Source: Nanoarchaeota archaeon
Lineage (GTDB): Archaea > EX4484-52 > LFW-46
DNA: 8,428 bases
Assembly: GCA_018897155.1 (NCBI GenBank)
Contig: JAHILE010000036.1
Coordinates: forward strand, 1-8,428
Reading direction: 5' to 3'
The notes beneath the pieces were generated by a model that was not told the DNA's origin, ran no database searches, and saw nothing but the letters and a program-made list of their open reading frames with translations. The translations under genes and the position numbers were made by a program. Below are positions 3,778 through 8,428 of the stretch, in pieces (the stretch's first letter is position 1; every line of letters begins with the position of its first letter).

Positions 3778-4467
3778 TTACATTTGTATATACTTTTTTA
3801 TAAATAGCAGTATATCGTTTTTGAGTTTCGCATCTTGAAATAAGGCAAATTCTTTCTCATCCATAAGATTCTTGTAGCCTCCGCACCACATATTCGCTCT
3901 TTTTCTGAAGAAAAAATCAGCCATTTTTTCTGCATCATCCCAGCCCCATTTGTCATGGCAATAAACTATGTGTTCAAGAACATATTGTTTTATGAATTCT
4001 TTGTCGAGGCTCATTATTTCTGATTCTGCTTCTTGTTCCTGTACTTTGCCACCCTCGTCGCTTAATAATGATTTAAGATACGTTTCAGGGTTTTTTGCAG
4101 CTTGAGATATATGAACCATTTCATGCGCTACTAAAAACAATACTCCTGAAATAGACAAAAAACTCTTTGCAGAGTTCAGATAAAGTAATATTCCGCGTTC
4201 ATATTCAGATGCAGATGCAGATGTAATAAAGACCTCGCTCCAGCAATCGGGTTCGTATGGATGAATCTCTTTGTCAGACACAAATTCGCCTGTAAGTATG
4301 TATATTTTCCAGCCTTCGGGATAGCCGATTTTATCCGCAAGATACTTGACATTTTTTGGAAAATTTTCCATGTTGTTTTTCCAGAATTCCTGCCGATTTT
4401 TGAGAAGTCCGTCTCTTGCTTTTTGCAATCCCAAATCTCCAAGTTTTTTGTAATCGAAAGAAGCCAT
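3778..4467 (-). CDS. Zincin-like metalloprotease, HEMVH motif
   Basis: A 229-aa protein of no family I recognise. It has a clear zinc-protease signature: LVAHEMVH (His115, Glu116, His119 from this start), preceded by a hydrophobic helix. An acidic EQEAESE stretch about 28 residues later could supply the third zinc ligand, as in gluzincins. No signal peptide or membrane segment is visible, so it is probably cytoplasmic; the substrate is unknown. The frame stays open to an ATG at 4611. I prefer ATG 4467 because AGGT (4477-4474) lies six bases before it. The extra 48 residues would also be encoded by a run of hairpins and look unlike protein. It lies directly upstream of TyrRS with a four-base gap. 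Confidence 0.7.
   Translation of the reverse strand: MASFDYKKLGDLGLQKARDGLLKNRQEFWKNNMENFPKNVKYLADKIGYPEGWKIYILTGEFVSDKEIHPYEPDCWSEVFITSASASEYERGILLYLNSAKSFLSISGVLFLVAHEMVHISQAAKNPETYLKSLLSDEGGKVQEQEAESEIMSLDKEFIKQYVLEHIVYCHDKWGWDDAEKMADFFFRKRANMWCGGYKNLMDEKEFALFQDAKLKNDILLFIKKYIQM
3797..3804 (-). promoter_or_regulatory. TATA box of the TyrRS gene
   Basis: TTTATAAA is centred about 27 bases upstream of the TyrRS ATG (3773) and predicts a start at or next to the ATG, hence a leaderless transcript. It lies within the last codons of the upstream metalloprotease gene, so TyrRS may be transcribed independently. Confidence 0.6.
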
Positions 4468-4522
4468 GGCAAGACCTGAAAAATAATGAGTGGGGTCGCC
4501 GCGATTTTCAGATTTCCGGATA

Positions 4523-4550
4523 TTTCCGCCCTCGCGAAGCGAGATCGGTG
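4523..4550. repeat. Palindromic repeat unit, copy 1
   Basis: TTTCCGCC, then the hairpin CTCGC-GAA-GCGAG, then ATCGGTG. It contains GCGAAGC, known as an unusually stable DNA mini-hairpin. Compare copy 2 at 4778-4807. Confidence 0.7.
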
Positions 4551-4777
4551 GTTTTTCTCTTTCTTCAACACGAAGTGTTGGAGATGTGAAAAAACGAAGT
4601 TTTTTCTTCATCTACCCGGATTTGTCTTTCTCTTTTTACAAAAAGAGAAAGAAATCGTTTGAACGCGAATCGCCGGCTGTTTCTAACCGCAATGGGTCGC
4701 TTCTAAGCCGAGCACGCTTAGCTTTTTCGGGTGCGAAAAAGTGTGAAAATTCGAAGAATTTTCAAGTGTGCGAAGGG

Positions 4778-4807
4778 TTTCCGCCCTCGGCAAAGCCGAG
4801 GTCGGTG
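4778..4807. repeat. Palindromic repeat unit, copy 2
   Basis: TTTCCGCC, then CTCGGC-AAA-GCCGAG, then GTCGGTG. Compared with copy 1 the stem is one pair longer, with both arms changed together, so pairing is kept while sequence differs. Confidence 0.7.
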
Positions 4808-4946
4808 AAAGCGTGAACCGATTTTGCGGTTCCCCGAAGCCGGAAGTCTACCATTCTAACATGCGAAGCAAGTTGGAAGCTTGTGAAAGCTTGCTTTCAC
4901 AAGAAGTTATCCTACGACCCCTTCGCATTTTCATTGTGATATCAAC

Positions 4947-5010: not shown

Positions 5011-5025
5011 AGCCCATCTAAAAAG

Positions 5026-5035
5026 CTTAAATTAA
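5026..5035 (+). promoter_or_regulatory. TATA-like box of the tRNA-Arg gene
   Basis: CTTAAATTAA is centred about 28 bases before the first tRNA base (5059), the usual archaeal spacing for a start at or just before the mature 5' end. Confidence 0.5.
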
Positions 5036-5058
5036 TGCTTTTGCATAACGTTCCTTGC

Positions 5059-5165
5059 GGGTCCGTAGCTCAGTTTGGATAGAGCAGGGGCGTCCTAAGC
5101 CCAAGGTCGTGGGTTCAAAATTGTTCTTTTCCGAAAGAACAATGAATATCTCACCGGGCTCGCCA
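5059..5165 (+). tRNA. tRNA-Arg(CCU) with a 29-nt intron in the T-loop, CCA encoded
   Basis: Acceptor GGGTCCG (5059-5065) pairs with CGGGCTC (5155-5161), followed by G and an encoded CCA (5163-5165). The D-arm is GCTC/GAGC (5068-5071, 5082-5085). The anticodon arm (5087-5103) has loop GTCCTAA, giving anticodon CCT, which reads AGG as arginine; its outermost pair is a G-A mismatch. The variable loop is AGGTC. The T-stem is GTGGG (5109-5113) with CTCAC (5150-5154), but 36 bases lie between instead of seven. Removing 5120-5148 leaves a normal T-loop, TTCAAAT. The gene lies between its TATA box and the convergent PH-domain gene, whose stop lies only six bases beyond the CCA. Confidence 0.93.
5120..5148 (+). 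other. tRNA intron at position 59/60, canonical bulge-helix-bulge
   Basis: T-stem GTGGG/CTCAC is the exon helix. TTCA (5114-5117) pairs with TGAA (5143-5146) as the 4-bp central helix. AAA (5118-5120) and TAT (5147-5149) are the two 3-base bulges. A 9-bp intron helix (5121-5129 with 5134-5142) ends in loop TCCG. Archaeal splicing endonuclease cuts after the second base of each bulge, which gives intron 5120-5148. Confidence 0.9.
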
Positions 5166-7107: not shown

Positions 7108-7246
7108 GGTGCTGTTGCACAATTCGCAGAGCACATACACCTTAGCGTTATCTGCAAAGCTAAAACCGAGTCATTCAAAATTCTTGCGTTCAACGCTAAG
7201 ATTTGAGCAAGAATTTTGGCATATATAAATCTTATGCAACAGCACC
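7108..7246. mobile_element. 139-bp MITE-like element with IS6-type inverted ends
   Basis: Perfect 12-bp terminal inverted repeats, GGTGCTGTTGCA (7108-7119) and TGCAACAGCACC (7235-7246), are flanked by identical GCGATATTG (7099-7107 and 7247-7255), a target duplication. The ends differ by one base from those I recall for IS257 (GGTTCTGTTGCA) and resemble IS26 (GGCACTGTTGCA), both IS6 family, which duplicate 8 bp. There is no room for a transposase, so the element is non-autonomous. The interior has two interlocking inverted repeats (7141-7149 with 7192-7200; 7176-7187 with 7207-7218). An outward TATA-like TATATAAAT lies at 7222-7230. Confidence 0.85.
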
Positions 7247-8257: not shown

Positions 8258-8428
8258 TGGACTGCACCCCTAAAAGTGGACAATTAGTTAAGTACACTTT
8301 CAACTAAATGATAGCTCTTTTTCTATGTATGCGCCGATAGCATTCATGCCTTCTCTTACAGTTTGAAAATCGCTGTTGTTCAAAACAAATCGTTGTATCA
8401 ATCCAAAATCCCGTTCAATAGGATTCAG
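8258..8428 (-). mobile_element. End of an insertion sequence, continues beyond the window
   Basis: The stretch contains a transposase C-terminus and, after its stop, a likely element end. ACTGCACCCCTAAAAGTGG at 8261-8279 resembles the ends of IS150-group IS3 elements (TGTACTGCACCC). An internal pair AAAGTG/CACTTT lies at 8273-8278 and 8295-8300. The exact boundary, at about 8258-8262, cannot be fixed because the other end and the target duplication are outside. Confidence 0.65.
8300..8428 (-). CDS. DDE transposase, C-terminal fragment
   Basis: The last 42 residues of a transposase whose N-terminal part lies outside the window. They begin with LNPIERDFGLIQRF. An NPIE motif with the catalytic Glu followed by an aromatic helix is typical of DDE transposases. 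LNPIE suggests IS630/Tc1, while the rve (IS3/IS481) type is possible given the element end. The fragment ends YIEKELSFS and a stop, where rve-type enzymes usually continue to a YNxxRPH segment. It could therefore be truncated, or of a different family. Confidence 0.65.
   Translation of the reverse strand: MNPIERDFGLIQRFVLNNSDFQTVREGMNAIGAYIEKELSFS

Follow-up and report, generated by a model that had tools for sequence, protein, structure and literature searches.

The window analysed is the whole 8,428-nt stretch of contig JAHILE010000036.1 (assembly GCA_018897155.1), which belongs to a genome of 1.43 Mb that is 96% complete. Its one close relative in the comparison is the congeneric MAG LFW-46, whose SRP54 protein, encoded on contig L026, is 86% identical to that of the window. 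A placement in Micrarchaeota, raised by the match of SRP54 to Burarchaeum, was dropped in favour of the published assignment of LFW-46 by its authors to p__EX4484-52, sister to Nanohaloarchaeota (PMC8561730), and the DPANN host proposed in the original prediction is thus supported. Positions 5059–5165 of the forward strand comprise a complete tRNA-Arg(CCT) gene with a single 29-nt insert (5120–5148) at position 59/60; on re-reading, the coordinates, insert and motif were as originally described. A second tRNA gene, for Pro(CGG), lies on the minus strand.

5021..5036, +, putative BRE/TATA-like AT-rich sequence AAAAGCTTAAATTAAT, ~23–38 bases upstream of tRNA-Arg(CCT)
5059..5119, +, 5' exon of tRNA-Arg(CCT), positions 1–59, from the acceptor to TTCAAA (5'-half model, stem pairs)
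5114..5149, +, bulge-helix-bulge (BHB) of tRNA-Arg(CCT), TTCA 5114–5117 / TGAA 5143–5146
5120..5148, +, 29-nt intron at 59/60 of tRNA-Arg(CCT), 9-bp hairpin TTGTTCTTT TCCG AAAGAACAA followed by TGAA TA
5149..5165, +, 3' exon of tRNA-Arg(CCT), with T60, T-stem CTCAC, acceptor CGGGCTC, G73 and an encoded CCA (pairing, ARAGORN)
4491..4921, -, tRNA-Pro(CGG) with three introns and an encoded A73; recognised by ARAGORN as tRNA-Pro(cgg) only once all three inserts are taken out
4505..4657, -, 153-nt T-loop (59/60) intron of tRNA-Pro(CGG), with BHB TTCA/TGAA, a member of the ~110-nt family described below
4679..4832, -, 154-nt anticodon-loop intron of tRNA-Pro(CGG)
4853..4903, -, 51-nt D-loop intron of tRNA-Pro(CGG), its limits deduced from the congener's D-loop, which lacks an intron

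Besides these, the window encodes SRP54, a Tyr/Trp-type tRNA synthetase and, at 550–1199 on the minus strand, a toxin-antitoxin-type pair of a HepT-like ribonuclease and an MntA-like nucleotidyltransferase. Downstream of SRP54, a structural-scan match at 7108–7246 was rejected as a tRNA; it is a short element of ~140 bp with perfect 12-bp inverted ends (GGTGCTGTTGCA/TGCAACAGCACC) that resembles an insertion-sequence MITE. A minus-strand frame at 8300–8428, cut by the contig end, ends with ...LNPIERDFGLIQRFVLNN..., like the C-terminus of a DDE transposase. The tRNA-Pro(CGG) gene, about 430 bp long, overlaps the listed start of a 277-aa ORF (3778–4611), and the true start of this ORF is probably further in.

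The acceptor of tRNA-Arg(CCT) is formed by GGGTCCG (5059–5065) and CGGGCTC (5155–5161) with 7/7 pairs, G-T pairs included, and the T-stem by GTGGG (5109–5113) and CTCAC (5150–5154) with 5/5 pairs. The D-arm reads GCTC...GAGC and the anticodon loop GTCCTAA, giving the anticodon CCT. The anticodon stem carries a single mismatch, G-A at 27-43, a small point against the splicing interpretation given below. With a covariance model trained on tRNA 5' halves, the gene was the top match in the genome (E=1.9e-13, a value inflated by the inclusion of the gene itself among the 20 training sequences). Similarity by BLAST of the upstream region to congener contig L026 starts at 5026. ARAGORN detected no tRNA at 5059–5165 in the unspliced sequence, and the Rfam tRNA model missed the gene in the raw window, giving a partial match below threshold. 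Absence from standard annotation is therefore no evidence against the gene.

The 29-nt intron and its bulge-helix-bulge

The final T of the T-loop is separated from TTCAAA by the insert, ATTGTTCTTTTCCGAAAGAACAATGAATA. With the T-stem acting as the exon helix, the junctions form the strict archaeal splice motif of a 4-bp helix between two 3-nt bulges (AAA at 5118–5120 and TAT at 5147–5149), continued by a 9-bp intron stem (5121–5129/5134–5142). No shuffle of the insert produced the central helix together with a 9-bp stem (0 of 200,000), and the central helix with at least 5 bp occurred at a frequency of 1e-4 in the same 200,000. The product alone leaves the cut site ambiguous by 1 nt, and 59/60 was chosen by the BHB geometry. 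In-silico removal of 5120–5148 restored the consensus loop TTCAAAT exactly, as had been predicted, and ARAGORN reported tRNA-Arg(cct) only from this spliced sequence. The proposal of a BHB intron at 59/60 of tRNA-Arg(CCU) is thus supported by structure, by recovery of the tRNA on splicing and by uninterrupted T-loops found in relatives. A group I intron or a known intron-borne ncRNA was rejected, as the searches gave no match to any Rfam family.

T-loop introns in the genome and across the order

At least 14 tRNA genes of the host genome appear to be interrupted at the same T-loop site. The genome scan required acceptor pairing, T-stem pairing and a BHB; anticodons were parsed and some loci were read by eye. 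The inserts were distributed as follows.

tRNA-Arg: CCT, 29 nt; TCG, 41 nt; TCT, relaxed
tRNA-Pro: CGG, 153 nt; GGG, 107 nt
tRNA-Asp: GTC, 115 nt
tRNA-Thr: GGT, 113 nt
tRNA-Ile: GAT, 113 nt, 3/4 helix pairs
tRNA-Ala: CGC, 108 nt
tRNA-Glu: CTC, 45 nt
tRNA-Leu: CAA, 33 nt; another Leu on contig C25
tRNA-Gln: CTG, 20 nt
tRNA-Ser: GCT

Uninterrupted T-loops were found in the same genome for Asn, Phe, Gly, His, Lys, Val and more, which indicates that the scan was not simply permissive. An empty site is provided by tRNA-Ile: without its insert the host gene reads GGGAG TTCAAAT CTCCC, identical to the intronless tRNA-Ile of the congener.

In six other genomes, tRNA 5'-half matches were compared with full tRNA matches, and 15 regions without a full match were read. 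Two of these overlap and one had no parseable gene, leaving 14 parsed loci, 13 of which had T-loop inserts; ten carried a 4/4 central helix, which was not a requirement of this reading. The usual 3' end of these inserts was TGAAAA^T. Many inserts occurred in family f3 (genome G003) and some in family f4, and in the outgroup G034 the T-loop was uninterrupted in the best ten 5'-half matches. For tRNA-Arg(CCT) itself, the insert was present in four genomes (G000, the host; G001, LFW-46; G004; G019) and the T-loop was intact in seven (G002, G003, G008, G010, G011, G017 and G027), a patchy presence of the kind expected from gain and loss. The BHB of the congener's insert is less clean than that of the host, which counts against the splicing interpretation. 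Judged by sequence, the Arg(CCT) intron is one of a clade-wide population of T-loop introns with a shared TTCA/TGAA scheme.

Six T-loop introns were aligned (A2) and a model (R2) was built from the alignment. This ~110-nt family has an unusual layout: a pyrimidine-purine hairpin, GACAARTCYGGGTRG, then a second tract of purines and another hairpin, with pairs that covary. Matches to R2 were confined to the host genome and LFW-46, that is to one genus, with no convincing match in 39 other genomes. Within the window, the model matched the T-loop intron of tRNA-Pro(CGG) at 4505–4659 (E=1.1e-9), with a weak partial match at 4759–4844 in the anticodon-loop intron of the same gene. Family copies occupy T-loops in tRNAs of differing amino-acid specificity. 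One lies in the anticodon-loop intron of tRNA-Ser(CGA) of LFW-46, and in each of the two species the T-loop intron of tRNA-Ser(GCT) holds an antisense copy (L154 1501–1606 and L152 1501–1608). Outside tRNAs, copies directly follow the stop codons of protein genes (L159 1462–1599, minus strand; L166 1249–1484, minus strand; L165 1501–1589, plus strand).

Between the two congeners, tRNA exons are mostly 95–99% identical (96–99% for the family-carrying tRNAs for which this was computed). The introns of the same gene are 55–69% identical, no higher than introns from different genes, and the highest intron identity (83%) was found across different tRNAs (Asp/Pro-GGG, Ile/Ala and Thr/Asp). The simplest reading of these sequence comparisons is an exchange of introns among T-loops after the two species had split; rapid divergence of unconstrained introns would be a partial alternative explanation of the low identity. 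The comparison accordingly supports the mobility suggested in the original prediction where the genome's other T-loop introns are concerned, and not for the 29-nt Arg intron, since R2 had no match at 5120–5148 and this intron falls outside the ~110-nt family. Its TTCTTT/AAAGAA hairpin had prompted the idea that it is a mobile-family intron reduced in length, to which R2 gives no support.

The second purine tract of the family covaries with, and is complementary to, the pyrimidine (5') strand of the hairpin (permutation p=0.003, for copies that are not independent), and may represent an alternative pairing, a triple helix or a duplicated tract. This third tract and the retention of covarying hairpins would also suit a reading, compatible with protein splicing, in which T-loop introns persist through a guide or regulatory function of the excised RNAs. 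We consider such a function unlikely, given the lack of Rfam matches, the restriction of the family to one genus and the finding that introns differ or are missing at orthologous sites; the 29-nt Arg intron is, moreover, merely a short hairpin.

Predicted splicing enzymes and the proposed pathway

Genes for an EndA-type endonuclease (PF01974, PF02778) and for the ligase RtcB (PF01139) are present in the genome. The subunit check recommended with the original prediction identified one EndA subunit type, of 232 aa (L066 1474–2169, minus strand; G000:C48), with one copy each of PF01974 and PF02778. Searches with these two domains found one EndA protein per genome of the order wherever any was found and detected no second subunit, hence no (alpha-beta)2 pair, although a sequence-divergent second subunit may be present. 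The enzyme is nearest to the alpha4 endonuclease of M. jannaschii (1a79, E=1e-29) and shares the organisation of alpha4 enzymes (whose subunits have ~180 aa), in that a single N domain and a single C domain make up the one subunit type detected. The three-unit epsilon2 chain of ARMAN-2 (~390 aa) does not correspond to the host protein, which has 232 aa and one C domain.

The Tyr and His of the catalytic triad (Y115, H125 and K156 in M. jannaschii) are retained. The Lys (K156, HSVRKK) is replaced by Ala or Ser (HNIRATAL, HNIRSTAL) in all aligned members of the order. A loop, YFGKWIDEEK, aligns in sequence with the Crenarchaea-specific loop (CSL) of A. pernix, YYGQPLDVEK44, and the loop Lys varies among the families of the order. 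Published work links the Crenarchaea-specific loop and its ARMAN-2 analogue to a broad range of substrates (PMC6379350, PMC12397907). The special endonuclease that the original prediction regarded as conceivable is in keeping with an enzyme that looks unusual in sequence, with its single-domain-set subunit, CSL-like loop and Lys to Ala/Ser replacement. As the usual catalytic Lys is missing, the predicted activity is not to be assumed.

These results favour, with a probability of roughly 0.9, the reading that the DPANN host has a single detected tRNA-Arg(CCU) gene, 5059–5165, and that this gene carries a 29-nt T-arm intron that would be spliced by proteins. A second intact tRNA-Arg(CCU) gene, named in advance as evidence to the contrary, was not found in searches of the 96%-complete genome (4% incomplete) with the gene and the 5'-half model. 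It is quite improbable that the gene is instead a pseudogene broken by a palindromic insertion, with tRNA-Arg(UCU) reading AGG. A tRNA-Arg(TCT) gene is present on contig C41 and may read AGG through wobble, and AGG codons are few in the genes of the window; however, a random palindrome is not expected to bring both TGAA and 3-nt bulges, all stems of the gene are kept but for one pair, and the same site is broken in many apparently single-copy tRNAs (Asp, Ile, Thr, Pro) that cannot all be dead. It is scarcely credible that the mature tRNA keeps the insert, whether as an extra arm or as a widened T-loop. Although the insert alone folds into a stable hairpin, its retention would abolish the elbow formed by the D-loop and T-loop, inserts at this site range in length from 20 to >200 nt from tRNA to tRNA and from one congener to the other, and excision restores the consensus loop exactly.

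Under the splicing interpretation, tRNA-Arg(CCU) would be transcribed as a precursor with the 29-nt intron in its T-arm. The T-stem would serve as the exon helix, and the 4-bp BHB helix would form between TTCA of the T-loop and TGAA of the intron. The EndA-type endonuclease would then cut inside both 3-nt bulges, at TTCAAA^A and TA^T, and RtcB would seal the exons to leave the normal loop TTCAAAU. As TTCRA is near-invariant in tRNAs, an insert ending in YGAA plus two bases could build its own BHB in any of them, and the heavy use of 59/60 is likely to reflect the TTCRA target offered by nearly every tRNA. A wider scheme is put forward tentatively, and we hold it to be doubtful as a whole: a single-subunit EndA, with its Lys replaced and a CSL-like loop gained independently of (alpha-beta)2 and epsilon2 enzymes, would support T-loop introns that are partly a non-autonomous ~110-nt mobile element, surviving through the TTCRA-built BHB and lying also in intergenic and antisense positions.

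Relation to known tRNA introns

Position 59/60 is among the known non-canonical sites of tRNA introns, for which Crenarchaeota and Nanoarchaeota are rich sources (PMC4090602), and Asgard archaea are rich in non-canonical tRNA introns generally (PMC11291895). The original description of 59/60 introns as known mainly from Thermoproteales-type Crenarchaeota was thus too narrow. The introns described here resemble those of Thermoproteales and other archaea in position, BHB geometry and the occurrence of several introns per tRNA gene. They differ in their host, a DPANN archaeon of the EX4484-52 lineage, in the T-loop being a major site and, compared with (alpha-beta)2-bearing systems, in the single EndA subunit type. 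Transposition of tRNA introns has been described for Thermoproteales (Fujishima et al. 2010, cited from PMC4090602), and the similar, recently moved introns in tRNAs for different amino acids are alike in this respect; unlike that case, the family of the host genus also has intergenic copies, a copy in an anticodon loop and antisense copies inside a tRNA intron. Among archaeal EndA types (PMC6379350, PMC12397907), the enzyme is a homologue of M. jannaschii alpha4 with a CSL-aligned loop and a Lys at the place of K44, and departs from alpha4, (alpha-beta)2 and epsilon2 enzymes in combining one ~232-aa subunit with Ala or Ser at the catalytic Lys. Introns at 59/60 and intron transposition are therefore already known elsewhere, and the lineage, the scale and the enzyme are new. 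In the literature searched, mainly non-subscription, no description was found of a T-loop emphasis in a DPANN order, an intron family extending outside tRNAs or the altered endonuclease.

Standard tRNA finders miss such genes, and for LFW-46 18 tRNA types were listed, compared with 20–21 in many other MAGs of the same study (PMC8561730). The findings add a poorly known DPANN lineage to those in which non-canonical tRNA introns are rampant. With two close species and one fixed site at which introns are gained, lost and exchanged, intron movement becomes open to direct comparison, and the EndA of the order could test whether a loop Lys replaces the classical catalytic Lys.
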